Below, one piece after another: positions 4,485 to 59,400 of a stretch of DNA of 64,000 nucleotides (positions are counted from its first letter, which is position 1; each line of letters starts with the position of its first letter). The notes under the pieces were generated by a model. The model did no database searches and was not told the DNA's origin. It saw nothing but the letters and a program-made list of their open reading frames with translations. The stretch spans positions 620,001-684,000 of the forward strand of contig JAYJMM010000025.1 in NCBI GenBank assembly GCA_037349105.1, given 5' to 3'. This stretch comes from Limnomonas spitsbergensis. Its lineage: Eukaryota; Chlorophyta; Chlorophyceae; Chlamydomonadales. The position numbers and the translations under genes were made by a program.

Positions 4485-7400
4485 GTGAGGAGCGGGCAGG
4501 GTGGGTGAATGGGTGGGGCTTACACATCAATGCCTTGAGGCAGTATAACCATGATTGATCACTTTTCCGGCCACGGGTGTGGAAGAGCGGGCAGGGTGGA
4601 TGGGCATGCAGGGTGGGTGGGTGGGTGGGTCACCCAACCATTGATGTACTGGTGCAAGACTGCAAGACCCACCCACCCAACTTGGGTGAGTGGGTCTTGC
4701 ACCTGTACATCATTACATCAACGCCTTCAGGCAGTGAAACCATCATTTATTTAATTGGCACTTTTCTGGCCACGGATGCAGAGATTCAGAGGGGGGGGGG
4801 GGATGGGTGGGCCTTACGCCTGCAATACCTTGAGGCAATTCAACCATTATTGATCACTTTTCTGGCCACAGGCGCAGACCTCGAAACATCTCTCTGCTAA
4901 CACTTCGGGCCCGGAATTCCCGGGCATTGCGCTGGTAGAGGGACTTCAGGAGCTCTGTCAGGAACCGTGATAGCTCTTATGACATTCATATCCCTCAAAC
5001 TTTTACGGACCTGTCCTCCTTTAAGATCTGGAGCCACCACTTGGGGTAACATCTAGCGCCTCCAATTTGGGGTTAAGATCTGCGGGTAAGATCTGGCGGT
5101 ACCTCGGTTAGATCTAGCATTCTAGCGCCACCACTTGGGGTGAGCTAGTGATTCCCCCCCGTAACTCTCAAGCCTTAAGATCACAAAGGTCCGAGACGGC
5201 GTCGTATCCCGCATGCCTCTCATGTCTACTGACCACCGAGGCGGACCGTGTCACGTGCGTCTCATGCCTCTTCGTGCCTCCCATGCCTCTCAGGTCTGCG
5301 GTCCACAGCGGAGATTACCACGTGCGTCTTATGCCTCTTATACCTCTCATACCTTGTCATTGCGTACTTCTCATGCCTCTCATGCTTTGTGATCACGTAG
5401 GCGGAGATGGCAATATGCCTCTCATACCTTGTGATCACGTACTTCTCATACCTCTCATACCTTGTGATCACGTAGGCGGAGATGGCAACCTACCTCCAGA
5501 CTCCCAAGTGGGTCCCCAAGAGTGAAGGCCGCTGGTATGTCTACAAGCCGGTGAACAGCAAGGTGCGACTTGAATTCAGAATTTCAGGGTTTAGGGTCAA
5601 CGCCCACTGCCGGTGAGGGGTGAGGGTTAAACCCACTGTCGATGAGGGTTTAGGGTTAAAGCCCACTGTCAATTAGAATATAGGGTTACACCCACTGTCA
5701 ATGAGGGTTTAGGATTTAAACCTGCTGGTATGTCTCCAGTCATTCACCAGCAAGCTGCGACATGCATGCACAATTGCAAATATCCAGGGTTGAGGGTTAG
5801 AGCCCGGTGCCAATGAGGGTTAAGGGTTTGGGGACCGCTTGCATGTCTGCAAGCCAGTTACCAGCAAGGTGCGACATGCATGCCAAGGTCCAGGGTTAAG
5901 GGCCTGCTGTCAATGGTCATTTGCGTGGGCCCGCTGCCGCTGCTGCTGATCATGCTGGTGCTGCTGCTGATGATGATGACAATGACTCAGAACACTCAGA
6001 AAGTGTTAACGAGCTCTTGATTCCATCTTGGCCCCAGCCATGCACAAAGCCATACCGCCTGTCACTCTCTGTTGCACATTGCATCGTTTGGTCCGCTGTT
6101 CACTCTTCGGCCAGGGCTCAACCAGCCTGTTGCAGTCATTCCAAACCTCATTTGTGGCCTCGCATGGGGCCTCTAGCCGACGGCCAGGACTGAGCTGAAA
6201 GGCAGCTGAAATGTAGGCGTCTAGCCGGCGCACGAAAAGCACAGTTGTCCCGTGCTTTTACATTATTGTTGCCCATGCTTGAAATTCCCCATCTTCGCCC
6301 TGGTATTCAGCAGAAGCTTACGCGAGACTACCTTGTCTCGTATTCTGTACTGCATCATACACATAGGAGGTACGGAGATTTGAGAAGCTGCTCCAGGACC
6401 TGCCACCGCTCCAGGCCCAGGAAGTGGCCGAGCTGCTTGACGAGATGACGCAGGTGAGCTGTCCTGTTGTCAATGCATGGACTTTGTGCTGCCACTTAGA
6501 CCTGCTTCCGCACCAAGGCCAGGAAGTGGCCAAGCTGCTTGACAAGAAGACGCGGGTGATACCACATAGAGGTGGTATCCATTGACCTGATGCTGCCTCT
6601 TGGACCAGCCAAGAGAGGTGGGCAAGCTGCTGATGAGATTGATTCAGGTTATAACTTTGACCTCCTGGTCACTGAATGCCTCTTATTTTTCAATATCACA
6701 TGGACTTTTTAGTTCGGCTGCCCCTGCTTTCAAAACTGCGTATGTTGCTTTCCTTGTGAATTGGATGACCCAGGTTGTATGCTCGTTACATCTGTGAGCT
6801 ACAGGCCACTGAATGCCACTAATTAGCCAGCATCAAATGGCATCTTTAGTGCGGCTGCCCCTGCTCTGGAAACTGCATAGTTTGCTTTCCCTGTGGATTG
6901 GGTGCCCGGTGCCCCTGGCTGCCAAACCCTGAACGAATTTTCGTTTTCCACATTTGTCATGCCCTGCGGATTTTAATTAATTGCAGAATTCTGAATCAAT
7001 AAGTAAATATTTACTGGGTGCCCCCTTGCCTGCAGGCACGATACAGCTGTGAGCTCATGGCTTCTCGCGGCATCCGTATTGCCCGCGACATCACCAACGA
7101 ATGGACGCGGCTGACAGGCGGCCTTCTGGAGAGGATCCAGTCCTACGAGACTGCCATGCAGAAGCAGGTGAGGGAGGGGAAATGCAGCGTAGCGCCTTCT
7201 AAACTGGTGTAGGGATCCAATCCTTTGAGGTCGCCATGCAAAAGCAGGTGAGAAGATTGAATCTGATCTGGCTGCCATGCAGAAGCAGGTGAGAAGGTTG
7301 AATCTGATCTGGCTGTCATACAAAAGCAGGTGAGAAGATTGAATCTGATCTGGCTGCCATGCAGAAGCAGGTGAGAAGATTGAATCTGATCTGGCTGCCA

Positions 7401-10400
7401 TGCAGAAGCAGGTGAGAAGATTGAATCTGATCTGACTGCCATGCAGAAGCAGGTGAGAATATCCAGTCTTATGAGGCCGCCATGCAGAAACAGGTGAGAA
7501 GATTGAATCTGATCTGGCTGCCATGCAGAAGCAGGTGAGAAGATCCAGTCCTATGAGGCCGCCATGCAGAAACAGGTGAGAGGACTTCACCCTGCTGCTC
7601 ACAGAAGGCAGCCGCCAGCCGCTGCAGCTACGTAGACCCTTGCCTAGCGGCGCCAGTTCTTCATGCTACACCCTCACCTCACACTTCTCACACCATCTTC
7701 ACACTTCCCACATTGATTCTTCTCTCCGAATCTCCCTGCTGCTGGGTACTGGTGACTGCAGCAGCTCTGCAGCTGCACCAGCCCCTGCCGGTTTCTGTCC
7801 ACAATTTTCTCACTCAGTCACACCTTTTCACACACCTGGCTCCAGAAAAGGAAATCACAATGTATGAAAAGGACAATACTGCTTCTGTAGCTGCGCCAGC
7901 CCCTGCCGGGCACTGCCTGTGCCTGTTGGTCTTGCTGACCCTTGCCTTATTTCACACTATCTTCACACTTCCTACACCTACCCTCTCTTTTCTCTTTCCC
8001 TGCTGCTCACAGGGGGCGGCCGCTAGCCTCTGTGTCAGCCCCTGCCAGGTGCTGCCTGTACTCCTCACTGCACCCTTGGTCTGCCAATTTAAAATCTTCC
8101 TGCGTGCACCCTCTCTCTCCCTGCTACTTACAGAGGGACATGACAACTGCGTGCACCCTCTCTCTCCCTGCTACTTACAGAGGGACATGACAACTGCGTG
8201 CACCCTCTCTCTCCCTGCTACTTACAGAGGGACATGACAACTGCGTGCACCCTCTCTCTCCCTGCTACTTACAGAGGGACATGACAACTGCGTGCACCCT
8301 CTCTCTCCCTGCTACTTACAGAGGGACATGACAACTGCGTGCACCCTCTCTCTCCCTGCTACTTACAGAGGGACATGACAACTGCGTGCACCCTCTCTCT
8401 CCCTGCTACTTTCAGAGGGTACTGGCAACTGCGTGCACCCTCTCTCTCCCTGCTACTTACAGAGGGACATGACAACTGCGTGCACCCTCTCTCTCCCTGC
8501 TACTTTCAGAGGGACATGACAACTGCGTGCACCCTCTCTCTCCCTGCTACTTACAGAGGGACATGACAACTGCGTGCACCCTCTCTCTCCCTGCTACTTA
8601 CAGAGGGACATGACAACTGCGTGCACCCTCTCTCTCCCTGCTACTTACAGAGGGACATGACAACTGCGTGCACCCTCTCTCTCCCTGCTACTTACAGAGG
8701 GACATGACAACTGCGTGCACCCTCTCTCTCCCTGCTACTTACAGAGGGACATGACAACTGCGTGCACCCTCTCTCTCCCTGCTACTTACAGAGGGACATG
8801 ACAACTGCGTGCACCCTCTCTCTCCCTGCTACTTACAGAGGGACATGACAACTGCGTGCACCCTCTCTCTCCCTGCTACTTACAGAGGGACATGACAACT
8901 GCGTGCACCCTCTCTCTCCCTGCTACTTTCAGAGGGACATGACAACTGCGTGCACCCTCTCTCTCCCTGCTACTTACAGAGGGACATGACAACTGCGTGC
9001 ACCCTCTCTCTCCCTGCTACTTACAGAGGGACATGACAACTGCGTGCACCCTCTCTCTCCCTGCTACTTACAGAGGGACATGACAACTGCGTGCACCCTC
9101 TCTCTCCCTGCTACTTACAGAGGGACATGACAACTGCGTGCACCCTCTCTCTCCCTGCTACTTACAGAGGGACATGACAACTGCGTGCACCCTCTCTCTC
9201 CCTGCTACTTTCAGAGGGACATGACAACTGCGTGCACCCTCTCTCTCCCTGCTACTTTCAGAGGGACATGACAACTGCGTGCACCCTCTCTCTCCCTGCT
9301 ACTTACAGAGGGACATGACAACTGCGTGCACCCTCTCTCTCCCTGCTACTTACAGAGGGACATGACAACTGCGTGCACCCTCTCTCTCCCTGCTACTTAC
9401 AGAGGGACATGACAACTGCGTGCACCCTCTCTCTCCCTGCTACTTACAGAGGGACATGACAACTGCGTGCACCCTCTCTCTCCCTGCTACTTACAGAGGG
9501 ACATGACAACTGCGTGCACCCTCTCTCTCCCTGCTACTTACAGAGGGACATGACAACTGCGTGCACCCTCTCTCTCCCTGCTACTTACAGAGGGACATGA
9601 CAACTGCGTGCACCCTCTCTCTCCCTGCTACTTACAGAGGGACATGACAACTGCGTGCACCCTCTCTCTCCCTGCTACTTACAGAGGGACATGACAACTG
9701 CGTGCACCCTCTCTCTCCCTGCTACTTACAGAGGGACATGACAACTGCGTGCACCCTCTCTCTCCCTGCTACTTACAGAGGGACATGACAACTGCGTGCA
9801 CCCTCTCTCTCCCTGCTACTTACAGAGGGACATGACAACTGCGTGCACCCTCTCTCTCCCTGCTACTTTCAGAGGGACATGACAACTGCGTGCACCCTCT
9901 CTCTCCCTGCTACTTACAGAGGGACATGACAACTGCGTGCACCCTCTCTCTCCCTGCTACTTACAGAGGGACATGACAACTGCGTGCACCCTCTCTCTCC
10001 CTGCTACTTACAGAGGGACATGACAACTGCGTGCACCCTCTCTCTCCCTGCTACTTACAGAGGGACATGACAACTGCGTGCACCCTCTCTCTCCCTGCTA
10101 CTTACAGAGGGACATGACAACTGCGTGCACCCTCTCTCTCCCTGCTACTTACAGAGGGACATGACAACTGCGTGCACCCTCTCTCTCCCTGCTACTTACA
10201 GAGGGACATGACAACTGCGTGCACCCTCTCTCTCCCTGCTACTTACAGAGGGACATGACAACTGCGTGCACCCTCTCTCTCCCTGCTACTTACAGAGGGA
10301 CATGACAACTGCGTGCACCCTCTCTCTCCCTGCTACTTACAGAGGGACATGACAACTGCGTGCACCCTCTCTCTCCCTGCTACTTTCAGAGGGACATGAC

Positions 10401-13400
10401 AACTGCGTGCACCCTCTCTCTCCCTGCTACTTTCAGAGGGACATGACAACTGCGTGCACCCTCTCTCTCCCTGCTACTTTCAGAGGGACATGACAACTGC
10501 GTGCACCCTCTCTCTCCCTGCTACTTACAGAGGGACATGACAACTGCGTGCACCCTCTCTCTCCCTGCTACTTACAGAGGGACATGACAACTGCGTGCAC
10601 CCTCTCTCTCCCTGCTACTTACAGAGGGACATGACAACTGCGTGCACCCTCTCTCTCCCTGCTACTTACAGAGGGACATGACAACTGCGTGCACCCTCTC
10701 TCTCCCTGCTACTTACAGAGGGACATGACAACTGCGTGCACCCTCTCTCTCCCTGCTACTTACAGAGGGACATGACAACTGCGTGCACCCTCTCTCTCCC
10801 TGCTACTTACAGAGGGACATGACAACTGCGTGCACCCTCTCTCTCCCTGCTACTTACAGAGGGACATGACAACTGCGTGCACCCTCTCTCTCCCTGCTAC
10901 TTACAGAGGGACATGACAACTGCGTGCACCCTCTCTCTCCCTGCTACTTACAGAGGGACATGACAACTGCGTGCACCCTCTCTCTCCCTGCTACTTTCAG
11001 AGGGTACTGGCAACTGCGTGCACCCTCTCTCTCCCTGCTACTTACAGAGGGACATGACAACTGCGTGCACCCTCTCTCTCCCTGCTACTTTCAGAGGGTA
11101 CTGGCAACTGCAGCACCTGTGACAGCCTCTGCAAGTCTCTTCACTATCTTCCTACATGTGCCTTCTCGAGTTCTCTCTTCATGCCACTTATAGGGGGTGC
11201 CCGGTCTCCTGCACGTAGGGTCAGGTCCAAGAACGCACTTGGAAAAACTAGGCATCGATGACATCGATGCGCCGAAACCACACGTTGCTTGAGGCTGGGA
11301 CATTGCCTCTTTATTTCTCTCTTCCTGCCACTCATAGGAGGCAGCGGCCTGCTGCTACACCTGTATTAGCCCCTGCCAGGCAGCGGCCTGCTGCTACACC
11401 TGCATTAGCCCCTGCCAGGCAGCGGCCTGCTGCTACACCTGTATTAGCCCCTGCCAGGCAGCGGCCTGCTGCTACACCTGTATTAGCCCCTGCCAGGCAG
11501 CGGCCTGCTGCTACACCTGTATTAGCCCCTGCCAGGCAGCGGCCTGCTGCTACACCTGTATTAGCCCCTGCCAGGCAGCGGCCTGCTGCTACACCTGCAT
11601 TAGCCCCTGCCAGGCAGCGGCCTGCTGCTACACCTGTATTAGCCCCTGCCAGGCAGCGGCCTGCTGCTACACCTGTATTAGCCCCTGCCAGGCAGCGGCC
11701 TGCTGCTACACCTGTATTAGCCCCTGCCAGGCGCTGCCTGTTGTTCATGCTGCACCCTTGCCTCATACCATCTCAACACTTCATGCATGTGCCATCTCTC
11801 TCTCCCCACCACCCATAGAGGGTGCTGGCGGCTGCAGCAGTTGCGGCAGCCCCCATCAGATGCTGCCCGCCTACCTTATCGCTGCACCCCTGCCCTGCCT
11901 CGCACCGTTTGCACTCCTAACATGCACCTCCCTTTCCCTGCTGCTCACAGAGGGTGCTGGCGGCTGCAGCAGCTGCGTCAGCCCCTCTCAGATGCTGCAC
12001 CTGCGGAGGGCGGTCGTCTTTTCGACCGCAGCCGGGGGCTAGAAGCTGCAGCCGGGGAGCGGGACCGCCTCCAGCACCAAGACATGGCAGAGGTGCCTCG
12101 ATAAGCAGCACCAGCAGCACAGAGGGAACGTCAGGTGAGCAGCAGTCTACTGGCCTAGGGGCTGGAGGAAATAAACTCGTTATGTGCAGTGGGAGATCTA
12201 CCACCAGGCCGTGGGAGCTGCAGCCGGGGGCTAGAAGCTGCAGCATGGGAGCAGCATCGCTACTGAGACATCGCAGAGGTGCCTCGATTAGCAGCACCAG
12301 CAGAGAGGGATCGTCAGGTGAGCAGCAGTCTTAAGTCCCACTGTGCAGGGGGGGCATACATAGTGGGCAGCTACCTACGGAAGAATTGCAAAGTACAGTA
12401 GCTTGGGTGAGCTGCAGTCTTATGTAATTATGTCCCACGGTGCAGGGGGGCAAACATAGTGGGTAGCTGCCTTCAATAGAGGTCAAAACTGCAGTACCTT
12501 TGACACATTTATCTGACCATAAATAGGCCCCCCCTATCACCCTCGCTTTTTTGTAGAGCCTTTCCCGTATGGTGAAGTGGCAGAAGGTATGCTGTGGGTG
12601 CTTCCCAGCCGGCTGATGGGGGTGCGGCCACCTCCCCAAGCACGCCAACTCCCTCGAACCCTCCCCTCAACCCTCCCCTCAACCTCACTTTTCTGTCCCG
12701 CCTTCCTCGTATTATCAGGATGGTGTGGGAGGTATGCTGTGGGCGCCTCCCACCCAGCTGAGGGGGGTGCAGCAGAGCCAGCAAGCTGCGGCCAACGCCC
12801 TAACCACAGCAACTCAATCGGACCCATGCACCGTTCCCTGCCATCATGGCAGCAAGAGGAAGACGAGGAGGAAGAGGAGGAGGAGGAGGAGGCACAGCAG
12901 CAGCCCTCAGTGGCAGAGTATCAAGAGGTGTGAAACAGTTGTTTCATTATGTTGTGCATTAGACCTTCTTAAGCAGTCACTGCTGGATTATTTGGGACCC
13001 ATCCTACATACGCATATGGCCGGAAGAGGAAGCAGCACGGCAGGCTTCTTGTACTAGCACGCGCAAGCTAATGTTTCTTTTACCGATAGCCGTATTTTGT
13101 TGATTATTAATGCGCATTGTGCCACAGGCCAAGATGTAAATGATGTGTAGCTGCCCTTGACTCTTCTGACCCTATCTACAAAGGCGTTAAATTCGAACCC
13201 TGACCTTGTTGTCCCTATCGACCAAGGTGTGCCTTGTTGCGGAGGATTATAATGTTGATCCAAGCTACGGCCCTTGACTTGGACTCAAGCAGTTTCCTCC
13301 CCAACAGGGGTCCTAACCCCGTCCTAATCTCTTACCATTGCCCCAACCAATAGGTGTGCCATGTTGCTGAGCATCTGAGCGTCGATCCAAGCTACGGCCC

Positions 13401-14381
13401 TTGCCTTGGACTCAAGCAGTTTCTTCCCCAACAAGGGTCCTTACCCCGTCCTAATATCTCACCATTGCCCCAACCAATAGGTGTGCTATGTTGCAGAGCA
13501 TCTGAACGTTGATCCAAGCTACGGCCCTTGCCTTGGACTCCACCCAGTTTCTCCCCCAACAGGGGTCCTAACCCCGTCCTAATCCCTCACCATTGCTCCA
13601 TCCAATAGGTGTGCCATGTTGCGGAGCATCTGAACGTTGAGAACTCTGAGCTCGTGGATGAGCTTGAGACCCTGAGGCATAAGTACCATAAGGTGAGGGG
13701 AATGCCAGCCAGCCAACTGTTCAACATAAATCAGCCGGGGTTATGCCAGCCAGCCAGCTGGAAATCAGCCGGGGTTATACCAGCCAGCCAGCTGGAAATC
13801 AGCTGGGAGCATGCCAGCAAGATAGAGGGCTCGAGACCCTGAGGCACAAGTACCATAAGGTGAGGGACACGCCAGCCAACTGAAAACCAACTGGGGCGTG
13901 CCAGTCAACAAACAGAAAACCAACTGTGGCCAACCAGCCAACTGGAGGCCCTGAGGCACAAGTACCGTAAGGTGAGGGAAACACCAGCCAACTGAAAACC
14001 AACTGGGGCAGGCCAGCCAACCATCAGAAAACCAACTGTGGCCATCCAGCCGACTGGAGGCCCTGAGGCACAAATATCACAAGGTGAGGGACACCAGCCA
14101 ACTAAAAATCAACTGTGGCATGCCAGTCAACCAACAGAAAACCAACGGTGACCAGTCAGCCAACTGACACCAACTGTAGCATGCCAGCCAGCCAAATCTG
14201 AAACCCCGCTCCTATTGTTTTGGACCCTGCTCTTATGAAATCTGAAACCTGATTCCTCACATTTTAACCCCCGCTCTTATGAAATCCGAAACCCCGCTCT
14301 ACCTGTTTGCATCAGGCCTGTGAGGCCAACATGCGCATGCGGTGTGCCCTGGACGATCGAGCCGGCCAATCACCCCCCTGA
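3414..14381 (+). CDS. Gene P1: multi-exon Gln/His-rich and helical protein, function unknown
   Basis: Exons I can support: 3414-4484, 5500-5562, 6367-6453, 7036-7167, 12853-12927, 13609-13692 and 14316-14381 (TGA). All borders are AG/GT and all are phase 0, which is strong internal support. They encode 357, 21, 29, 44, 25, 28 and 21 residues. After a low-complexity N-terminal exon come short segments that look helical (LLQDLPPLQAQEVAELLDEM; NVENSELVDELETLRHKYHK) and an acidic Glu run (QEEDEEEEEEEEEAQQQ). Exons between 7.2 and 12.85 kb are probably missing from this model, because that intron is filled with satellite. I do not recognise the family; a coiled-coil scaffold is only a guess. The start may be Met1 (3414) or Met7 (3432), and 3432 also follows a possible AG acceptor. 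Confidence 0.6.
3559..3752 (+). repeat. 24-bp CAG/CAA-rich coding minisatellite
   Basis: Imperfect 24-bp units such as ATGCAACAGCACGAGCAACA code for Q/H/E octads inside the first P1 exon. Mixed CAG and CAA codons show it is not a pure trinucleotide run. Confidence 0.85.
4485..5499. repeat. P1 intron 1: decayed copies of both flanking splice borders
   Basis: The donor-side text GAG(C)GGGCAGGGTGG(G/A)TG just after exon 1 recurs at about 4578-4605. The block GAGGCA..ACCAT..TTGATCACTTTTCTGGCCAC recurs near 4535, 4728 and 4832. Upstream of the exon 2 acceptor, TTGTGATCACGTAGGCGGAG and its neighbours repeat at about 5387-5490 among CTCATGCCTCT repeats. No other gene is visible. Confidence 0.6.
5563..6366. 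repeat. P1 intron 2: two decayed copies of the exon 2 end plus TTTAGGG-like text
   Basis: The exon 2 end (TGGTATGTCTACAAGCCGGT...AGCAAG|GTGCGAC) recurs in degraded form at about 5726-5765 and 5838-5885, with GGGTTTAGGGTTA-type stretches between. The telomere-like words are isolated and interrupted, so this is not a telomere. Confidence 0.65.
6454..7035. repeat. P1 intron 3: copies of the exon 3 end
   Basis: CAGGAAGTGGCCGAGCTGCT from exon 3 recurs at about 6519 (AGGAAGTGGCCAAGCTGCTT) and more weakly at about 6608-6650 (AGAGAGGTGGGCAAGCTGCT). A duplicated block (GTGCGGCTGCCCCTGCT; TTTGCTTTCC) lies at about 6710-6910. Confidence 0.65.
7205..7580 (+). repeat. 41-bp array made from the end of P1 exon 4 plus its donor
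   Basis: About nine units of 41 bp. Each contains GCCATGCAGAAGCAG|GTGAG, the last five codons of the preceding exon with the 5' splice site, plus GAATCTGATCTGGCT. Two units keep a longer piece of the exon (ATCCAGTC(C/T)TATGAG). All are in the sense orientation of P1. Confidence 0.85.
8098..11110 (+). repeat. 47-bp satellite carrying a polypyrimidine tract and 3' splice site, about 64 copies
   Basis: The unit is CACCCTCTCTCTCCCTGCTACTTACAG|AGGGACATGACAACTGCGTG (period 47, from starts at 8104 and 8151), almost uniform over 3 kb. Variants with TTTCAG instead of TTACAG recur at intervals. A unit with GGGTACTGGCAACTG sits near both ends (about 8415, 11000, 11095), so larger blocks were also copied. 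The last unit runs into AGGGTACTGGCAACTGCAGC, which resembles the exon-like sequence at 11951. There is no variable spacer, so it is not a CRISPR array. Confidence 0.95.
11340..11735. repeat. 39-bp minisatellite, about 10 copies
   Basis: The unit GGCAGCGGCCTGCTGCTACA + CCTGTATTAGCCCCTGCCA is a multiple of three, so it stays open in both directions without being a gene. It starts directly after CACTCATAG and resembles CAG|AGGGTGCTGGCGGCTGCAGC at 11951, so it is probably another expansion of the same exon edge. Confidence 0.9.
11736..12340 (+). pseudogene. Tandem decayed copies of a P1 exon
   Basis: Three acceptor-like starts (about 11819, 11951 and, upstream, 8014) lead into AGGGTGCTGGCGGCTGCAGC-type text. 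Two further blocks, about 12030-12134 and 12220-12317, end in CGTCAG|GTGAGC. In the frame that looks helical (LEAAAGERDRLQHQDMAEV) the first copy has TAA and the second has TGA. I see no intact copy, so the working exon may differ or lie in an alternative splice form. Confidence 0.45.
12341..13608. repeat. P1 introns with 3' splice-site copies (127-bp unit)
   Basis: Upstream of the exon at 13609 its acceptor and first about 35 bases (CAATAG|GTGTGCCATGTTGC) are present three more times, at about 13227, 13354 and 13481, a period of 127-128 bp. The copies share CAAGCTACGGCCCTTG and CCCCGTCCTAAT. They diverge after about 12 codons, and only the last copy continues as a phase-0 exon. The 12341-12852 part holds GC-rich duplications around GGTATGCTGTGGG. 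Confidence 0.85.
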
Positions 14382-14790
14382 GGTGTGCCCTGGACGATCG
14401 AGCCGGCCAATCACCCCCCTGAAGAGACCGGCTGAGGTGTGCCATGGACGACCAAGCCAGCACATCACCCACCTGCTGAGGAGATTGGCAGCATGGACTT
14501 TCTATGACATGAAATGTATGAGGAAGTGTAGCCAGGTTTGATTGTCACATACCATCTGAAGGAGCTGACAGCGTGGACTTTCTAGGCCAATAAAAGCATA
14601 AGGAAGTGTGACCCAGCCAGCTTCTCACCCCCTCCCCTGCCATGCTGTAGAAGCTGGCAGCGTGAACTTTCTCAGCCGACCAAAGCATTACAACGTGTGA
14701 TCAGGCCAGCTTGTCACACCCCTGGTGAAGGGACTGGCAGCTTGGACATTCTAGGCCAGCGAATGCATGAGGTGGTGTGACCATGCCAGC
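13693..14790. repeat. Copies of P1 exon ends, before and after the last exon
   Basis: CTGAGGCACAAGTACCATAAG|GTGAGG, the end of the 13609 exon, recurs at about 13838, 13953 and 14063, separated by CCAGCCAACTGAAAACCAAC repeats. After the last exon, GTGTGCCCTGGACGATCGAG recurs at about 14382 and more weakly at 14435. About 90-bp degenerate units (GCAGC(G/A)TGGACTTTCTA) follow to about 14770. Confidence 0.75.
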
Positions 14791-14797
14791 ACAGTAC

Positions 14798-15605: not shown

Positions 15606-15634
15606 TCCTAAGCCACATCCCTGCCGTTACCATT

Positions 15635-16794: not shown

Positions 16795-16879
16795 GCGTGC
16801 TTCTTGATCTCTCTGTGCTCATTCTGCTGCAGCCAGACCCTTATGGCCTGCATGTACGAAGAACTCTCTCAAGCGACCC

Positions 16880-17070: not shown

Positions 17071-17170
17071 CTGGCGGGGAGCGTCCGCTATGCCTACGCC
17101 GGACCTGGGACCATGATCAAGATGAGCTGAGCAGGCCCGATACACTGCTTCATAATATTAGCCATTATGA

Positions 17171-17733: not shown

Positions 17734-20046
17734 TCACCTGCCACCCTTTCCATCCTGGCTCATCTTGCCACTCGACTTCTGTTTCTTGTACCCCTTGGCG
17801 CTGTTGCGCTTATCCTTCCTCGCCTTCGTGGGAAACAGGACCTCGGGGTAATATGTCTGCAGGGGACATGAGGAGGAAAGGGGCCTCAAGGGAGATGCAG
17901 TCTTTGATTACATGTTGACGTTCGTATCCCTAGCTGAAGACAATGTCTCTTGGGGGTAGATGGAAGGAAAGGGTCAAGGGTCAAGGTGTGAAGGTTCCTT
18001 CTTTATTCCAGCGGCTTGACATGCCTCTCTTTGGCTTGAGATAGTATATCTAGGTAGTAAGTTAGAGGGATTCAAGGTTCAGGATTATCACTCCCATCCC
18101 GAGTTACATGCAGGTAGCAGATGCAGCTGCCAGAATGAGGAGAACGACCAGCATGCGAGCAAAGAGGGCCATGCTTGTAAACATTATGGTTTTGGGACTC
18201 CGTGGGATGCCCCCCCCCCCTTAGCTTACATGCAAGAAGTAGATGCGAGATGCCGCCGCCAGGATGAAGAGCACCACTGGTAAGGTGACCACAAGGGCCA
18301 TGGAGGTGAGGCTCTGGGGGGTCTCCAAGGTAGTGATGATTGCTTCATCCGTCAGATTGATCTTGAACTGAAGCGGCTCGGGGGCTGCATTGGAGGAAAT
18401 GGAAAGCTGATTCAAAATCGGTTCAATCACAGATCCTGTCGCCCAGCATCCCACACCTCAACCGCTGATGGCCGCCCCAGATTCTCCCACACCTCAACCG
18501 CTGATGGCCGCCCCAGATCCTCCCACACCTCAACCGCTGATGGCCGCCCCAGATTCTCCCACACCTCAACCGCTGATGGCCGCCCCAGATTCTCCCACAC
18601 CTCAATCACTAATGGCCGCCCCAGATTCTCCCACACCTCAAATGCTGATGGCCGTCCCAGATTCTCCCACACCTCAACAGCTGGTGGCCGCCCCAGATTC
18701 TCCCACACGTCAACCGCTGATGGCCGCCCCAGATTCTCCCACACCTCAACAGCTGGTGGCCGCCCCAGATTCTCCCACACCTCAACCGCTAATGGCCGCC
18801 CCAGATTCTCCCACACCTCAACCGCTGATGGCCGCCCCAGATTCACCCACACCTCAACCGCTGATGGCCGCCCCAGATTCACCCACACCTCAACCGCTGA
18901 TGGCCGCCCCAGATTCTCCCACACCCCAACAGCTGGTGGCCGCCCCAGATTCTCCCACACCTCAACCGCTGGTGGCCGCCCCAGATTCTCCCACACCTCA
19001 ACCGCTGATGGCCGCCCCAGATTCTCCCACACCTCAACCGCTAATGGCCGCCCCAGATTCTCCCAAACCTCAACTGCTAATGGCCGCCCCAGATTCTCCC
19101 ACACCTCAACCGCTGATGGCCGCCCCAGATTCTCCCCTACCCTACCAGCTTTGCGGGGGTCTCTCCACTGCTTCTCCATGGTGACAGGGTTTTGGTAAAA
19201 GTACTTGTCCGTCTTTTTGTCCAGGTACACATTCCAGCGAACATCTGATGGATAAGGGCGGAGGGAAGCAGTCCTGAGTGAAGGGCGGCGGGGCACAAAA
19301 AGGATGCTAGCCGAGGTACCTGTGCCAAAGGGGCATCTGGAGGGGTGCTTGGCAGGAGGGACATCCTATCAGGCTATCACGCATTCGCAAAATGCGTGAT
19401 GGACTGATGACTTTGTCCCCCAGTTAAGACAGGCACACATGGAGATCTGGGAAAGCTGTTTTCAAAGTGTCCTATCACACATGCATTGGGTACGAAAAGG
19501 TTTCAGTGCATGACTACAAGCATGCATTGTTTACGCGTGAATGCATGATTACACGATTGCACGAATGCTAGCATGGTCCCCAATATGGCATCAGAGGCAG
19601 CTCTTCAGTACCCATGCATTGCGACGCTCTGTGCCACCCATGCACGCTCTCTCATGCCTCTCAATATTTCATGCAGCCATGAATGAGCCGAGCTGCTGGC
19701 CCTGCATAGCTGCGTTAGCTATATGCGAGCATGCAGGTTCTGCAGCCATGCAGGAAAACATCTGTAAGCAGCGTGTGGTCGTGTACTTGAGAAGCTGTGT
19801 GTCACTGTCGCAATTATTACGGCAAAACACGTGATGGACAGCAAAAATGAAGCCTCGTCAGTGCTGCTCACTCTTGTCCGTGATGATGTAGGCGCGGCCT
19901 TGCTCGTCTGTCTCGACGCGATCTACGTCGCTATCTGCTGCCACCCTCTGGTACTGTCCGCATAAGGAGCAGGTCAGAAGTAGACATGCCAACACGATCA
20001 GCGAGAAATTCGCATCGACAGCCTGTGCGCTACGAGGGCGAAGCAT
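17734..20046 (-). CDS. Gene M1: signal peptide + WW domain + transmembrane protein, 183 aa
   Basis: Four exons on the minus strand: 19872-20046, 19146-19244, 18230-18384 and 17734-17856 (stop TGA). Lengths 175+99+155+123 = 552 nt give 184 codons; phases 1, 1, 0 fit at every junction and all borders are GT/AG. Residues 14-29 are a hydrophobic signal peptide core (FSLIVLACLLLTCSLC). Residues 62-88 form a WW domain: W62, Y73-F74-Y75, N77, T80, W85, P88. Residues about 119-137 are a single transmembrane helix (MALVVTLPVVLFILAAAS). The tail (144-183) is Lys/Arg-rich. Known: WW domains bind Pro-rich or phospho-Ser/Pro ligands, usually in cytosol or nucleus. Inferred: a small type I membrane protein with a lumenal or extracellular WW domain. 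I do not recognise an ortholog. The start is the only ATG before the signal peptide. Confidence 0.75.
18100..18182 (-). pseudogene. Decayed copy of the M1 transmembrane exon
   Basis: On the minus strand 18182-18108 reads MALFARMLVVLLILAAASAT, followed by Cys-Met and a stop. It clearly derives from the exon 3 text TSMALVVTLPVVLFILAAAS. It lies in intron 3 and would end the protein early if used, so a minor splice form is conceivable. Confidence 0.65.
18440..19145. repeat. 36-bp array, about 19-20 copies, inside M1 intron 2
   Basis: On the minus strand each unit is GTGTGGGAGAATCTGGGGCG + GCCATCAGCGGTTGAG, and it begins with a donor-like GAG|GTGTGGG. It starts right after the real donor (GCTG|GTAGGG). 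The 36-bp length keeps it open on both strands (a WENLGRPSAVEV repeat on minus). I treat it as intron because exon 2 joins exon 3 in correct phase across it. A coding role cannot be excluded without cDNA. Confidence 0.85.
19245..19871. other. M1 intron 1 with CATGCATT-rich sequence
   Basis: No gene. Many CATGCA and ATGCATG words at 19470-19760. A long open stretch on the minus strand just upstream of exon 2 is extension of the exon frame into intron. Confidence 0.5.
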
Positions 20047-22823: not shown

Positions 22824-23999
22824 TATTTCACGCCTATGGTTCCGCGTATGAATCGATCACGTGTGTACCGGCATTGGCATTTCCAGCTCAATACCGCATG
22901 CATGCCTGTCAAATGCCTGTCATGAGTAACAGCTGAGTGGTCTGATGGCTCTGATCCCACATGACCGTGCACGGTGCGTTAGAAGGTCATTTCTGGATAG
23001 GATCATGTCGCAGCGTCACAGGTTCATAGTTGTCCGGGCCACTGGGGAGTGGGGACCAACTGGGCTGAGCAGGCATGATTGGAATTGTGATCCAACGTAC
23101 GTAATAATTCCAAATAATTTAGAAAACATGTCAATACCAGCAAGGTACCGGTACCACGATATGGATATGATATGGATATGATATGATATGATATGAATAT
23201 GAAATGATGTTTTGACCATACGGTATCATATTTTGCAGTCAAAAATGAATTTAGCCTAAAAACGGCAGAATTTACAAAGGACAAGCCCATGCATTCGGCA
23301 GGTGCACTACCCTTGACCCCATTCACATACATACTGACATGGCAGCATGCAGCAAGCGAGCAGTCCCACTGACCCCTACGGCCCAAGGGTCACCAAGCGT
23401 CTATGCATCCACATTTTCCATGGTATATGCTTTATGTGTCGCAAAATCTTGCAACAGCTAGGCCCATTCTGGCGTAGAACGGTTGGAATGGCAGAAGAGC
23501 CCTTTCCCCAACTCAATACCAATTCACCGTTCTCATGCCCATGCATGGATAAGTTGACACCATATCATATCATATTTTACTATATCACATCATATTGCCG
23601 ATACGTTATTATATGATGGCCCCAAAGACTATATCGTGCTACCTTGAATACCAGCATGGTAGGCAACTAGGCAAGCAAGCTGGCTAGTGACTAGACGCAC
23701 CAAAGCCAAACGTATGTTAAGAGGTTTTCTTCAGTCCTTTGTGGAAAGCACGAGCATCTGCGCGCAAAGAAAATATCCAAACCCTACAACACGAACAAAA
23801 TCTCGAACCATGCAACCATGCATGCACCCGCATGAGTCACAAACTAACCCTGGCCATGGAAATTCGAGAGTAAGTGAAAACCCATACAACATGCGAATGA
23901 ACGGAGGGACCCTCACGTTCTGAACGCCATCAGCAGGCTCCTCATACGCGGCACAAGTAAAACCAATACGTATGCCTCCCGACATGATATATCCCTGGT
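22824..23999. other. No gene; ATATG microsatellites in opposite orientation
   Basis: GATATGGATATGATATG at 23157-23205 and its inverted counterpart CATATCATATCATA at 23561-23590 bracket about 400 bp. This may be a small inverted-repeat element or chance simple sequence. No reading frame convinces me. Confidence 0.4.
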
Positions 24000-50400: not shown

Positions 50401-53400
50401 TTTGGTAGCCCGAAGCATGTTGGTGGCTTTAATGGTTTCCAAATGTGGGTCGTGCATGCCAGCTAAATTTCCAGTAGCGAAATTTTAGTAGCTGCAACCT
50501 TGCTGTTCTCATTATTGTTTGCGTTGCCCCGGTGTCGAATGACTCACTTTTTTGCATTGACCCGGTGTGTAAAGTATCGCAAATCAAGCATTTGGCAGCC
50601 TAAAGCATCTTGGAGGCTGTAATGGCTTCCAAATGTGCATCGTGCATGTCAGCTGCAAGCATGCAGTTCTCATTTTCTGCGAGCTGCAGGCATACTGCTC
50701 TTATTTTTTCTACCTGCAGGCATGCTGTTTCCATTTTTTTTGCATTGCCCCGGTGTGCAAATGATCATGTCTGCGAGTCATGGTTTTCGCCGGGGTGGGT
50801 TTTACATTCAACTTCACACAATTAACAGATGTGCCCGACAAACGCACTGGCATGTAACTGCCAACTGACAGCAGTGTAACTGCTGTTGATGGCCTGCCAA
50901 AAATAGATATCCCTTTTGTTCCCAACTGCCATAAGCTGCATAGTGCACAACGCATGCAGATATATAGGATGGGCTGCCACGGTGTAACTGCTTATCGGCA
51001 TTCAAAACATACTTGGCGGTTGAACTTCCTGATGTTGCTTGCGGAATGTGTGGCGTATGGGGATATGGTTTAGGGGATGTATGTGGTGTACGTACTAACT
51101 TCCATTTAAAACATACTTCACAGTTGAACGTTCCTGATGCCACATGCAAAATGTGTGACGCGTTTGGATCTGGTTAAGGCGGTCAATGCGGAGCAACTGC
51201 TAACTGACGCTCAAAGCATACTTAACTGTCCGAATTTTCTGATGCTGCACGCAGAATTTGATTCGTGACACATGCAACTCTGGGCAGGGCAGCTGATGCG
51301 GAGTAACTGTTAACTAACATTCAAAAACATACTGAAATAATGCACGTTCCTTTTATTACATGCAGTGTGTAACGTATGCGGATCTGGACATGGGGCTTAC
51401 GCAGTGTAACTTCTAACTTATATTCAAATTCATACTTAGCTGTTGGACATGTTGCTTCATGCAGAGTGTGTGACGTATGCGGATCTGGTCAAGGCGGCGG
51501 ATGCAGTGTTCGGGAGGTTTGGGAGATATAAGGATGCATACAAGTGAGTAATGGAAGGTGTGGGGGAGGTGTGGGAGATGTAAGGATGCATACAAGTGAG
51601 GAATGGAAGGTGTGGAATAGGGAAGTGTTCGGGAGGTTTGGAAGATATAAGGATGCATACAAGTGAGGAATGGAAGGTGTGGGGAGGTGTGGAAGAGGGA
51701 GGTGTTCGGGAGGTTTGGGAGATATAAGGATGCATACAAGTGAGGAATGGAAGGTGTGGGGGAGGTGTGGAAGAGGGAGGTGTTTGGGAGGTTTGGGAGA
51801 TATAAGGATGCATACAAGTGAGGAATGGAAGGTGTGGGGGAGGTGTGGAAGAGGGAGGTGTTTGGGAGGTTTGGGAGATATAAGGATGCATACAAGTGAG
51901 TAATGGAAGGTGTGGGGAGGTGTGGGAGAGGGAGGTGTTCGGGAGGTTTGGGAGATATAAGGATGCATACAAATGAGTAATGGAAGGTGTGGGGAGGTGT
52001 GGAAAAGGGAGGTGTTTAGTAGGTGTGGGAGATACAAGAATAACGAGGTGCACAACTGAGCCATTGGAGTGTAGGATGGGAAGGAATGGTATGTATGGAC
52101 TGTGAAGTGTGAAGGGAGTGTAGTGTTCAGGAGTTCAGGAACAGATGAGGATTTTGAAGAGTGACTTTGAGGAGTGTGAACGTGTAAGTGCCTAGGTGGG
52201 AGATGTGTGAATATTGGTGTAGATACCCACACGGTGTGTGTGGGTGTGGGTGGGGGGGGAATGCCTAGTGCCTAGTGGCCTACCTCCTCCTCTCTCGCTG
52301 TCCGGCATGACGCCGCCCCTCCGACCCCCAATTCCTCATCCTGTGCCCTCTACGCTATCCTCAACCCCCTCTACGCTATCCTCAACACCCTCTACGCTAT
52401 CCTCACCCCCCCCTGCTATCCTCAACCCCCTCTACGCTATCCTCAACCCCCATTACGCTACCCTCAACCCCCTCTACGCTATCCTCACCCCCCCCCCCCG
52501 TAATCTTGAACCCCCTCTACGCTATCCTCACCCCCCCCCACAATCTTGAACCCCCTCTGCGCTATCCCGACCCCCGTCTACGCTATCCTCACCCCCCCCC
52601 ACAATCTTGAACCCCCTCTGCGCTATCCCGACCCCCCTCTACGCTATCCTCACCCCCCCCTGCAATCTTGAACCCCCTCTGCGCTATCCTCAACCCCCTC
52701 TACGCTGTCATTACCCCCCCCCCGCAATCTTGACCCCCCTCTGCGCTATCCTCAACCCCTTCTACGCTATCCTCACCCCCCCCCGCAATCTCGAACCCCC
52801 TCTGCGCTATCCCGACCCCCCTCTACGCTATCCTCACCCCTCCCCGCAATCTTGAACCCCCTCTGCGCTATCCCGACCCCCCTCTACGCTGTCATTACCC
52901 CCCCCCGCTATCTTGAACCCTCTCTGCGCTATCATTAACCCCCTTGACCTTTCCTGTATGTTTCCAGGTTGTCTGACCTCAAGAGGGCAATGAGCCTTAT
53001 GGATCTCAACGCAGACGGCAGCCTTGGATAGTGAGTGAGAATAGTGTGGTGGGTAGTTTAAAAAGAGTAATGCACGTGTTCTTGCGGTGTGGCAGGGAGT
53101 GAATAGTTTGGTGAGGGGTTTGTTTAGAGGCGACATAAACAATGAGGATCATATGTGGGATGATAGTGGCATCAGGATCGGATTGGACGGCAGGATTGAC
53201 CCTGGGCAGAGTCGCTGGCAGTGTTGTTGCTGAGAGTGCTGGCTGAGTTGTACCTGGTTGGGCAGTCCCTAGCTGGGTCGCTGACTGTGCCCTTGGACAA
53301 GTTAGGGCGCCCCACAAAGCCGTCTTAGCCCTCTGTTCTGCTGCGTTTAGATATGGGGCTTCAACTTGATTACAGTAGGACCCCCTTGGATCTCAGGGTC

Positions 53401-56400
53401 CGACATAATCGATTTAGAAGATGTACATGTACAAACGTGTCGGCTTGCGGCCTAACGCCGACGCGTGGCCTAGAAAAACAGGCTGGCACTGGCCGGCGCC
53501 GATGCCAGGTTTCGGTGCCAATTTTTTCTGGCATCGGCGGCCGACTGGCGCCGAATTCCCTGATCCAGACCCCTCATTCTAACATTGGAATCCTTCCAGC
53601 TACTTCTCTGTTGCTCCTTACACGCCCACCCTCACTCGTCCCACTCTTTTCAGCTGTGAGTTCATCACCTTCATGACATCTCACATGATATGGGAGCTGC
53701 CAGATGGACCGTCAGCCGCAGCTCTGATCCAGGTATGAAGTTGTACCGTTTGGGTATGGATGGTGTGAGTAAAAGTATGAGGCATGCATTGGAGCCGCAT
53801 GCATTGGAGCCGCAAGATATTTTGTATGCCGGCTGCTGGTGTGATTAAGGTATGACTCAGTACCGTTAAGGGGAGGTGCAAGATAGTCAGGTGGCCGCAC
53901 AGCTGTGGTGACCAGGGTATATATTGTGGCAGTTGAGGTGTGAACAGTTGATGCATAAGTATGAAGGGTGGAGGTAAAGATCTGGGAGCGGTGAGATTAT
54001 CCAATTTTGGTTGCAGCTAAGGTTTAAATTGGGATTTTTTTGAACTGCGGGGCGGAGGTTCTGAACCCTGACGTGAGCACCGGAAGCCATGTACCCTGAA
54101 CCCTGAACCCTTCACCTTACACCCTAAACAAGAAACTCTGATCCTTGAACCCTTCACCTTACACCCCGAATCCAATGCATGTACTGCTTGCAGGGTTTAG
54201 GGTGAATCGCCGGTGAAGAAGGAACCCAACTCTTTTAAATTAGGGTGAAAGGTACCTCACCACCTTAAAAGCCCCTGGATGTGTATGATGGTTTTTCTTA
54301 CGTCGGATTTTCGTGCAGGGACGAGTTCTCCTCTGCTACAAACAGTCGAGCCTCTACACCTTGGCCACAAATCCTACACCCTGAAACCTGAACCAGAAGC
54401 TCTGAATTGTTTTGCCCGCAGAGCCGAAGCGCCCACCCCGGCCACAAACTAGTGGAGGAGAGGATCATGGTGAGTGAAGCGTTGGTAATTGAAGGGTGAC
54501 TATGGCGGGGGAGGAGCCCTGGTGCAGTAGGCCCTGCTACTGAGACATTGATCACAAACTAGTGGAGGAGAGGATCATGGTGAGTGAAGCGTTGGTTATT
54601 GAAGGGGTGACTATGGCGGGGGAGGGGCCCTGGTGCAGTACGCCCTGCTACTGAGACATTGATCACAAACTAGTGGAGGAGAGGATCATGGTGAGTGAAG
54701 CGTTGGTTATTGAAGGGGTGACTATGGCGGGGGAGGGGCCCTGGTGCAGTAGGCCCTGTTACTGAGACATTGATCACAAACTAGTGGAGGAGAGGATCAT
54801 GGTGAGTGAAGCGTTGGTTATTGAAGGGTGACTATGGCGGGGGAGGAGCCCTGGTGCAGTAGGCCCTGCTACTGAGACATTGATCACAAACTAGTGGAGG
54901 AGAGGATCATGGGGAGTGAAGCGTTGGTTATTGAAGGGGTGACTATGGCGGGGGAGGGGCCCTGGTGCAGTAGGCCCTGTTACTGAGACATTGATCACAA
55001 ACTAGTGGAGGAGAGGATCATGGTGAGTGAAGCGTTGGTTATTGAAGGGTGACTATGGCGGGGGAGGGGCCCTGGTGCAGTAGGCCCTGTTACTGAGACA
55101 TTGATCACAAACTAGTGGAGGAGAGGATCATGGGGAGTGAAGCGTTGGTTATTGAAGGGGTGACTACGGCGGGGGAGGGGCCCTGGTGCAGTAGGCCCTG
55201 CTACTGAGACATTGATCACAAACTAGTGGAGGAGAGGATCATGGTGAGTGAAGCGTTGGTTATTGAAGGGTGACTATGGCGGGGGAGGGGCCCTGGTGCA
55301 GTAGGCCCTGTTACTGAGACATTGATCACAAACTAGTGGAGGAGAGGATCATGGGGAGTGAAGCGTTGGTTATTGAAGGGTGACTATGGCGGGGGAGGGG
55401 CCCTGGTGCAGTAGGCCCTGTTACTGAGACATTGATCACAAACTAGTGGAGGAGAGGATCATGGGGAGTGAAGCGTTGGTTATTGAAGGGTGACTACGGC
55501 GGGGGAGGGGCCCTGGTGCAGTAGGCCCTGCTACTGAGACATTGATCACAAACTAGTGGAGGAGAGGATCATGGTGAGTGAAGCGTTGGTTATTGAAGGG
55601 TGACTATGGCGGGGGAGGGGCCCTGGTGCAGTACGCCCTGCTACTGAGACATTGATCACAAACTAGTGGAGGAGAGGATCATGGTGAGTGAAGCGTTGGT
55701 TATTGAAGGGGTGACTATGGCGGGGGCGGGGCCCTGGTGCAGTAGGCCCTGTTACTGAGACATTGATCACAAACTAGTGGAGGAGAGGATCATGGTGAGT
55801 GAAGCGTTGGTTATTGAAGGGTGACTATGGCGGGGGAGGAGCCCTGGTGCAGTAGGCCCTGCTACTGAGACATTGATCACAAACTAGTGGAGGAGAGGAT
55901 CATGGGGAGTGAAGCGTTGGTTATTGAAGGGGTGACTATGGCGGGGGAGGGGCCCTGGTGCAGTAGGCCCTGTTACTGAGACATTGATCACAAACCAGTG
56001 GAGGAGAGGATCATGGTGAGTGAAGCGTTGGTTATTGAAGGGTGACTATGGCGGGGGAGGGGCCCTGGTGCAGTAGGCCCTGTTACTGAGACATTGATCA
56101 CAAACTAGTGGAGGAGAGGATCATGGTGAGTGAAGCGTTGGTTATTGAAGGGTGACTATGGCGGGGGAGGGGCCCTGGTGCAGTAGGCCCTGTTACTGAG
56201 ACATTGATCACAAACTAGTGGAGGAGAGGATCATGGGGAGTGAAGCGTTGGTTATTGAAGGGGTGACTACGGCGGGGGAGGGGCCCTGGTGCAGTAGGCC
56301 CTGCTACTGAGACATTGATCACAAACTAGTGGAGGAGAGGATCATGGTGAGTGAAGCGTTGGTTATTGAAGGGTGACTATGGCGGGGGAGGGGCCCTGGT

Positions 56401-59400
56401 GCAGTAGGCCCTGTTACTGAGACATTGATCACAAACTAGTGGAGGAGAGGATCATGGGGAGTGAAGCGTTGGTTATTGAAGGGTGACTATGGCGGGGGAG
56501 GGGCCCTGGTGCAGTAGGCCCTGTTACTGAGACATTGATCACAAACTAGTGGAGGAGAGGATCATGGGGAGTGAAGCGTTGGTTATTGAAGGGTGACTAC
56601 GGCGGGGGAGGGGCCCTGGTGCAGTAGGCCCTGCTACTGAGACATTGATCACAAACTAGTGGAGGAGAGGATCATGGTGAGTGAAGCGTTGGTTATTGAA
56701 GGGTGACTATGGCGGGGGAGGGGCCCTGGTGCAGTACGCCCTGCTACTGAGACATTGATCACAAACTAGTGGAGGAGAGGATCATGGTGAGTGAAGCGTT
56801 GGTTATTGAAGGGGTGACTATGGCGGGGGAGGGGCCCTGGTGCAGTAGGCCCTGTTACTGAGACATTGATCACAAACTAGTGGAGGAGAGGATCATGGTG
56901 AGTGAAGCGTTGGTTATTGAAGGGTGACTATGGCGGGGGAGGAGCCCTGGTGCAGTAGGCCCTGCTACTGAGACATTGATCACAAACTAGTGGAGGAGAG
57001 GATCATGGGGAGTGAAGCGTTGGTTATTGAAGGGGTGACTATGGCGGGGGAGGGGCCCTGGTGCAGTAGGCCCTGTTACTGAGACATTGATCACAAACTA
57101 GTGGAGGAGAGGATCATGGTGAGTGAAGCGTTGGTTATTGAAGGGTGACTATGGCGGGGGAGGGGCCCTGGTGCAGTAGGCCCTGTTACTGAGACATTGA
57201 TCACAAACTAGTGGAGGAGAGGATCATGGGGAGTGAAGCGTTGGTTATTGAAGGGGTGACTACGGCGGGGGAGGGGCCCTGGTGCAGTAGGCCCTGCTAC
57301 TGAGACATTGATCACAAACTAGTGGAGGAGAGGATCATGGTGAGTGAAGCGTTGGTTATTGAAGGGTGACTATGGCGGGGGAGGGGCCCTGGTGCAGTAG
57401 GCCCTGTTACTGAGACATTGATCACAAACTAGTGGAGGAGAGGATCATGGGGAGTGAAGCGTTGGTTATTGAAGGGTGACTATGGCGGGGGAGGGGCCCT
57501 GGTGCAGTAGGCCCTGCTACTGAGACATTGATCACAAACTAGTGGAGGAGAGGATCATGGTGAGTGAAGCGTTGGTTATTGAAGGGTGACTATGGCGGGG
57601 GAGAGGCCCTGGTGCAGTAGGCCCTGTTACTGAGACATTGATCACAAACTAGTGGAGGAGAGGATCATGGGGAGTGAAGCGTTGGTTATTGAAGGGGTGA
57701 CTACGGCGGGGGAGGGGCCCTGGTGCAGTAGGCCCTGTTACTGAGACATTGATCACAAACTAGTGGAGGAGAGGATCATGGTGAGTGAAGCGTTGGTAAT
57801 TGAAGGGTGTCTATGGCGGGGGAGGAGCCCTGGTGCAGTAGGCCCTGTTACTGAGACATTGATCACAAACTAGTGGAGGAGAGGATCATGGGGAGTGAAG
57901 CATTGGTTATTGAAGGGGTGACTATGGCGGGGGAGGGGCCCTGGTGCAGTAGGCCCTGTTACTGAGACATTGATCACAAACTAGTGGAGGAGAGGATCAT
58001 GGGGAGTGAAGCGTTGGTTATTGAAGGGTGACTATGGCGGGGGAGGGGCCCTGGTGCAGTAGGCCCTGTTACTGAGACATTGATCACAAACTAGTGGAGG
58101 AAAGGATCATGGGGAGTGAAGCGTTGGTTATTGAAGGGTGACTATGGCGGGGGAGGGGCCCTGGTGCAGTAGGCCTTGTTACTGAGACATTGATCACAAA
58201 CTAGTGGAGGAGAGGATCATGGGGAGTGAAGCGTTGGTTATTGAAGGGTGACTATGGCGGGGGAGGGGCCCTGGTGCAGTAGGCCCTGCTACTGAGACAT
58301 TGATCACAAACTAGTGGAGGAGAGGATCATGGTGAGTGAAGCGTTGGTTATTATAAGGGGTGCTTCCAGTACAGGTCTGCGACAGTGCGGTCCCGGAGCA
58401 GTAGGCATCGCTTTAATTTTCAGAAAGAGTCATAAGCCTATCTTTTGTCAAAGAAAGGTGCAAGTTGTTTGCCGAGTTCACGGTTTCTATCCGGTAATAT
58501 TATCTGTTTTATACAAGTGAAAATAATTCTTTCATGTATTCACTATTTTTTCTTCTCCTTCAGCATTTACGAAAAAATAGTGGAGGAGAGGATCCTGGTA
58601 AATGAAGGATTGGTCATAAGAAGGGTACCTCCAGTACAGGTCAGGGACATTGCGGCCTATGGCAGGGGGGGGGGGGGCTAGTGCCGCAGGCCCCGCTGCT
58701 CAGGCAATCACGACAACCTTGTGTAGGAGAGGATCCTGGCAATTGAAAGATTAGTAGTTAAAAGGGTACCTTAAGTACAGGTCAACCCCAAATGCTGAAC
58801 CCTAACCCCTATTCCGCACCTTGCCTCACCAGGTGGGCAGTTTCCACTTAACCCTCAATTCTCAATCCCAAACCCTCAATTATGAGTGTCTGTACCCCTT
58901 TCCCTATTATATTTTTAGATCCTTTAAATTAAGTGGGCAGCATCCGCCTACCTCTCAATCCTGAACTCCCAATTATGAGTGTTTGTACCCCTTTGAGTGG
59001 CCTTTCCCCTATTTTATCTCCCTGTATTTATTTCCCTGTTTATCTCCCTTTCATCAGGTGGGCAGCATGCGCCTACCTGACCTCATCATGACTTATCGGG
59101 ACAAGGTCATGCTGGAGCGACAGCTAGCTGAGGTGAGCCATAAACCCTGAACCCTAAAAGGGTAGCTGAGTCATAAACACTCGCAAGACCCTCACCACTC
59201 CCTCACCACTCACCACCCACCTGCTCACCACTATACCAAGACTCACCACCCACTCACCACCCACCTGCTCACCACTATACCAAGACTCACCACCCACTCA
59301 CCTCCCACCTGCTCACCGCTATACCAAGACTCACCACCCACCTGCTCACCACTATACCAAGACTCACCACCCACTCACCACCCACTTGCTCACCACTATA

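Follow-up and report, generated by a model that had tools for sequence, protein, structure and literature searches.

Direct tandem duplications that reach across splice borders recur in introns of the green alga Limnomonas spitsbergensis

Introners insert as dispersed copies into many genes, and short internal duplications touching splice signals are reportedly common in eukaryotic genes, as Gao and Lynch are said to have found in 2009 in a survey whose subject was duplications and new introns rather than arrays inside existing introns. Here we describe repeated intron material of another kind in a 64,000-nucleotide stretch of the green alga Limnomonas spitsbergensis (the window; contig C25, positions 620001–684000, in a genome of 260,226,709 bases and 124 contigs), where introns hold direct tandem copies of their own splice borders. 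The alga, probably an Arctic snow alga, has been grouped in one clade with ICE-L, UWO 241 and C. eustigma (PMC11228838). Among the closest described systems, the potato RdRp gene underwent a single tandem duplication that carried intron–exon structure together with a branch site, pyrimidine tract and 3' splice site (PMC4974935), and fission yeast has 24-bp AGGT exonic repeats with introns spanning the copies (Zhu and Niu 2013, cited in PMC4974935). The core-Reinhardtinia algae have conspicuously long introns, for which the driver of length is described as likely ancient and the advantage as unknown (Craig et al., PMC8226300); for the volvocine green algae, the same source calls introns unusually long and the driver of their length unexplained.

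As far as PMC4974935 describes these two cases, the arrays studied here resemble the potato gene in that the duplication carries splice signals, and the fission yeast repeats in being multi-copy tandem duplications with splice signals in every unit. Whereas the potato gene is one case, yielding a new intron and an inserted exon, the duplications here lie in existing introns of many genes and reach up to about 35 copies; and whereas the fission yeast units are exonic and create an intron, those described here consist of exon plus intron and lengthen one. The core-Reinhardtinia relatives share long introns with the present alga, although their account, in what it says of intron length, does not link it to tandem duplication of borders (PMC8226300). 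Repeated intron material in many genes recalls introners, from which the arrays differ in that their units are local, with no similar copies in unrelated genes (four units tested). Direct head-to-tail copies at one locus are likewise typical of intronic minisatellites; unlike these, the arrays reach coding exons, 13 of 22 families including at least 10 bp of exon. They also differ from tandem exon duplication in that partial exons are involved, as in ABCI12, where the copies include a portion of exon 3 (169 bp). None of the titles listed in searches of open-access literature reports border-spanning arrays at such prevalence, which is weak evidence of absence; single related cases are already published.

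Border copies were counted by comparing an 80-bp probe (40 exonic and 40 intronic bases) with about 1.4 kb on each side of every border, a score above 30 being required; the count accepts any match of the probe, exon-derived or not. Several of the tests reported below draw on common data and were adjusted once initial results were in, and their P values serve as guides. In the window, sense copies were detected at 25 of 51 borders (6 of 13 in ABCI12; 19 of 38 in P1, P3 and a minus-strand chain), as against antisense copies at 0 of the 154 borders in and outside the window, so the border copies are not due to chance. The preliminary description of this DNA had assigned copies to most borders of five genes, P1, M1, M2, ABCI12 and P3; for the window the figure is a third to a half, 25 of 51 counting any match and 17 of 51 counting arrays with at least eight exon bases, which occur at 11 of 103 other borders. 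All nine places at which it had noted copies do hold sense copies of the adjacent exon border, and these contain both exon and intron bases, as it had stated: exon end plus GT in the donor type, and pyrimidine tract, AG and exon start in the acceptor type. Acceptor copies sit upstream and donor copies downstream, except that one of the 25 positives, the acceptor of the 48-bp exon at 54422, matches downstream through its multiplied exon end. This direction follows from geometry, because once a border has been duplicated the copy still attached to the remainder of the exon stays exon, and it therefore gives no separate evidence on mechanism. The exons claimed earlier are confirmed by orthologues in ABCI12 and by a paralogue on contig C90 for two exons of P3 (51465–51543 and 59058–59132), while the others of P1, P3 and the minus strand are predictions from codon use and splice motifs; on the minus strand M1 and M2 could not be separated, and one WW-domain chain was tested in their place.

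The exons of ABCI12 align one by one with proteins of C. eustigma, UWO 241 and D. salina, support for exon 4 being weak (E ~0.004), and the best named relatives are those of Chlamydomonas eustigma (73% identity) and Chlamydomonas sp. UWO 241 (66%). On the plus strand, exon 3 (34180–34348, 169 bp, placed by orthologue alignment) is preceded by an acceptor-type array of nine diverged copies spaced about 135–145 bp apart (32902–34040) and followed by two decayed donor-type copies of its end, starting at 34395 and 34630 (34395–34690). Decayed acceptor-type copies also precede exon 5 (36600–36854, recognised by eye and by the border probe and family counts), and two more, at 37243 and 37346, lie before exon 6 (copies, 37243–37456; exon, 37457–37513). 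P3, likewise on the plus strand, encodes an EF-hand-like protein whose chain scores as an EF-hand pair (E 1.4e-5) under the Pfam cut-off. Its exon at 51465–51543, which has a 91% identical counterpart on contig C90, carries an acceptor-type array of four copies spaced about 105 bp apart on one side (50983–51404) and a donor-type array of seven copies on the other (51564–52095). Further along, the end of the predicted exon 54422–54469 is multiplied downstream into a donor-type array of about 35 copies of a 110-bp unit, 95–99% identical to the first (54443–58352), before the exon at 59058–59132, which the C90 paralogue supports. Arrays of up to about 35 copies of one border are a natural experiment on spliceosomal choice between identical sites, and they are a hazard for gene annotation.

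To gauge prevalence independently of repeats, chaperonin (CCT/Cpn60) exons were located by profile, giving 72 exon matches, 49 of them inside 58.6 kb of DNA; the set of 83 borders drawn from these 49 omits 15 of 98 possible borders that had no confident or separate splice site, and a set of 53 omits 6 of 59 automatically placed borders judged unreliable. A second sample comprised arbitrary loci at round-number positions (L003–L007) plus L001 beside the window, L002 having yielded no exon; its 25 predicted exons (50 borders), two of which come from L001, omit 8 of 33 predictions, one in a repeat on the minus strand of L006 and seven in L008 that look intronless or foreign. In the chaperonin genes an intron-side copy scored above 30 at 14 of 83 borders, with 0 exon-side copies, 0 antisense copies and 0 in a reversed control at the same score. 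When the make-up of these positives was checked at seven loci of the 14, at least two (C37, exons 92–190 and 394–468) proved to copy intron bases up to the border and no exon bases. With 7 of 50 borders positive at the arbitrary loci, the earlier statement that nearly every border seeds an array does not hold. The window is richer than the rest (25 of 51 against 21 of 133 borders, Fisher P 8e-6); it is an extreme locus, and the phenomenon recurs elsewhere. Coverage by arrays of period 15 or more, as called by Tandem Repeats Finder, was 27% in the window and 5% in the chaperonin segments, and it ranged from 2 to 50% at L001–L008, with 48% at L002, another neighbour of the window. Chaperonin copies favoured acceptors (12 of 43) over donors (2 of 40; Fisher P 0.007), but the predicted genes of the window tended the opposite way (scores above 30 at 7 of 19 acceptors and 12 of 19 donors), so no conclusion is drawn on acceptor bias.

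We consider the best reading, and a moderately probable one, to be a general process of short tandem duplication that is tolerated wherever splicing hides the extra copy. Introns would grow through recurrent short direct tandem duplications, with spacings mostly of 40–200 bp, that could start anywhere in a gene and would arise by replication slippage or unequal exchange. Selection would purge those falling inside exons, which would appear as scarcity in exon interiors, whereas those within introns or across borders would survive, the outermost intact sites (first donor, last acceptor) being the ones spliced. Extra copies would then turn into intron and add decoy splice sites; once retained, they would be neutral and would drift, or expand and homogenise locally, and border copies would represent the exon-tagged, longest-recognisable part of a general intron expansion. 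Such border-tagged duplication is a candidate driver of the long introns of core-Reinhardtinia algae, and arrays that include the border make the origin and growth direction of an intron readable.

The observations themselves are direct repeats in sense orientation, units that stay local (in the four tested), a dearth of repeats in exon interiors and persistence across paralogues. Across the 154 borders, the rate of sense repeats was 25% at the border and 26–32% at 20–440 bp into the intron, falling to 16% at 40 bp and to 5–7% at 80–100 bp inside the exon; antisense repeats at interior positions numbered 1–4 of about 153. The tandem units are direct head-to-tail copies confined to one locus: for the four units compared with the genome, no array was found elsewhere in the 260 Mb by a search that skips very common words, and the sole distant match was the paralogous exon on C90, which argues against introners. 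Recognisable tandem duplications occur in 16 of 41 homology-defined introns (34 chaperonin and 7 ABCI12), a sample that beyond the window covers one conserved family, with DNA taken only around its exons, and so favours short introns (mean 529 bp against a published mean of 788 bp). These data support the earlier proposal that a recurrent process, acting in unrelated genes on both strands, enlarges introns and supplies decoy splice sites. The accompanying claim that borders are the seed is unsupported as stated, repeat rates in intron interiors being similar to that at the border, though arrays anchored at borders can give such a profile too.

Paralogues give some indication of age. The chaperonin paralogues on contigs C39 and C99, whose exon stretches are 84–89% identical, share an acceptor duplicate about 108 bp upstream of the exon at profile positions 316–382, within alignable sequence; the rest of that intron does not align, except for one 142-bp stretch (78%) at a different spacing. 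The following exon has three copies on C99 and a single partial one on C39. In P3, the exons at 51465–51543 and 59058–59132 both recur on C90 with their order conserved, and DNA similarity at the former ends about six bases beyond the donor. On C90 this exon carries a separate acceptor array of four copies, spaced roughly 120 bp apart, as well as two decayed donor copies. Beside the exon part, about 15–20 intron bases of the acceptor units on C25 and C90 also match, and their cross score of 53 compares with a shuffled maximum of 32, most of the alignment being exon-derived. A common origin of the donor copies of P3 and C90 was considered and dropped, their cross-alignment scoring 50 against a shuffled maximum of 48. 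Judged from these alignments, the comparison suggests that these acceptor arrays predate the gene duplications and that copy number changed afterwards.

The occurrence of border copies in paralogues on separate contigs also bears on whether the arrays are an assembly or polishing artefact of long noisy reads. Some arrays are indeed 95–99% identical, and their copy number may be wrong; but 33 of 102 border-crossing copies are less than 90% identical, and together with the paralogues this makes such an artefact barely credible. Chaperonin and HSP70 exon matches are paired on contigs C36/C119, C39/C99, C4/C123, C21/C124 and C104/C120, which suggests segmental or whole-genome duplication, and the paired contigs should be useful for dating intron arrays.

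One chaperonin intron, on C106 (621 bp), consists nearly entirely of five copies of acceptor plus exon start, those adjacent to the exon being 92 and 88% identical and those further off, toward the donor, 77–80%. An intron built almost wholly of copies recalls the Rogers model, according to which introns arise when an exonic AGGT segment is tandemly duplicated in the genome, and would here have been multiplied later; the type of mutation is also the same. However, a search of the C106 intron at score 24 revealed no copy of the end of the upstream exon, and units read by eye consist of exon plus adjacent intron, not of the end of exon 1 joined to the start of exon 2, so we regard this route as very improbable.

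The alternative closest to the preliminary description is that duplication is seeded at borders, splice junctions being hot spots (through paused polymerase, R-loops or AG/GTGAG microhomology) where tandem duplications would preferentially start; we judge it rather unlikely, although several results favour it and weigh against duplication starting anywhere. A flat repeat profile around borders had been taken to refute seeding, an argument withdrawn because simulated border-anchored arrays also gave a flat profile. In the placement simulation the border/interior ratio was 0.39 (a dip) for uniform and 1.00 for border-anchored placement; the observed ratio of 0.89 (0.68–1.09) leans away from a purely uniform process, with values of 0.74 (0.44–1.06) without the window's genes and 1.00 (0.74–1.29) within them. 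Because far positions are not handled in that model as they are in the real count, array families were used instead; 22 of them were found in the 16 introns. Of these families, 13 touch a border, that is, include at least 10 bp of exon, compared with 7.0 expected from random placement of equally long units in the 41 introns (P 0.004); an earlier count on unrefined borders, taken as profile-match ends, had given 12 of 22 against 8.1 (P 0.044). The excess lies mostly in decayed families (7 of 11 against 3.2 expected, P 0.012). Array edges, not de-duplicated, fall 28 times in the exon (within one period), 3 times at the border, 20 times in the first intron period and 10 times in the next, a 28:20:10 gradient that again accords with seeding, as do the exon-including arrays at borders in and outside the window; the edges of border arrays lie 9–114 bp inside exons. 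A de-duplicated edge count in which the smallest edge was kept (28 exon, 13 intron, P 0.014) was dropped, since it favours exon edges.

On the other side, intron-only arrays are common (9 of 22), well-preserved families show no significant excess (6 of 11 against 3.9 expected, P 0.12), and predicted exons were chosen partly by splice motifs, possibly favouring borders. Decayed border copies, moreover, stay detectable for longer because the exon half of their parent is under selection. In simulation, border arrays at 20–30% divergence were detected in 75% of cases and intronic ones in 36%, a doubling for old arrays, with an overall inflation of 1.22; the estimate is approximate, as an ungapped scorer without indels stood in for BLAST. 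After correction for a 1.22-fold bias the border excess has P 0.027, and after a 1.5-fold bias P 0.14. The simulated inflation was 1.10 in the decayed and 1.23 in the well-preserved class, which leaves the decayed excess unexplained and must be added to the results that speak for seeding. The border enrichment anticipated in the preliminary description is present against random placement in these 41 introns, with detection bias explaining part of it. Duplications hit borders no less often than random placement would lead one to expect, and perhaps as much as about twice as often; a true preference, at most about twofold, is unproven, a modest one being possible.

Duplication tolerated where splicing hides it, our preferred reading, would also leave retained copies neutral, and neutral drift fits poorly with the ABCI12 exon 3 array, in which CAG is invariant in 10 of 10 rows at a mean column identity of 62%, although 20 columns altogether are invariant. 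Such constancy would be expected if the copies were functional, with extra acceptors or donors regulating splicing as poison or alternative sites or strengthening intron recognition. Of the 33 copies of less than 90% identity, moreover, 29 keep AG or GT, where 23.1 would be expected, and in the duplicate about 108 bp upstream in C39/C99 the true acceptor's own TAG lies in frame between duplicate and exon. Yet overall the dinucleotide is kept in 79 of 102 border-crossing copies against 86.9 expected from identity, and alignments anchored on the border raise apparent retention; the counts, which are exploratory, exclude the 41-bp P1 array described below. We hold functional copies to be improbable. 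The overall shortfall arises because the 110-bp array of P3 lost GT in many copies: without that array, 59 of 66 copies keep AG or GT against 52.5 expected. Within it, GG replaces GT in 15 of the 34 copies printed, the first four being intact, and GGTGAGT and GGGGAGT copies alternate in blocks; the interleaving suggests that a higher-order repeat spread within the array. A bolder combination, in which duplication prefers splice borders and the decoy sites stay functional over long periods, each intron being put together from copies of its own ends and the spliceosome as a rule choosing the outermost among many near-identical sites, seems to us doubtful.

In the left part of the window, P1 carries arrays of both types on the plus strand. 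The 3' end of a predicted, coiled-coil-like exon from the exon scan (7036–7167), whose sole genome match is itself, is repeated downstream in a donor-type array of about nine copies of a 41-bp unit comprising exon end plus CAG|GTGAGA (7205–7581). A second predicted exon from the scan (13609–13692) is flanked on both sides: upstream by three copies of a 127-bp acceptor-type unit (13225–13608), which repeats the acceptor and first bases of the exon and has no match elsewhere in the genome, and downstream by three copies of a 112-bp donor-type unit (13833–14166). P1 matched no Pfam family above its cut-off, and the P1 and P3 peptides gave no convincing match to a solved structure, apart from one chance-level match for P1. 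Between the two exons, also on the plus strand, lies the array of about 64 copies that had been described earlier as a border array (8100–11111). It exists, as 64 near-identical 47-bp units that in the parts read hold a pyrimidine tract and CAG, forming a row of acceptor-like sites; no exon could be tied to it, and it is not counted as a border array.

On the minus strand, the chain that scores as WW domains above the Pfam cut-off contains an array of 19 copies of a 36-bp unit (18449–19136), which does not span a border, its edge lying about 5 bp from the predicted donor of exon 19146–19244. Between predicted exons of the same chain, a 752-residue open frame with an RNase H domain (20601–22856, minus strand) is probably part of a retroelement. 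At L008 (C30, positions 500001–510000), the minus strand holds long intronless frames of 749, 647 and 638 residues, one with a polysaccharide pyruvyl transferase domain; these are unlike the intron-rich genes elsewhere, and the locus is possibly foreign DNA.

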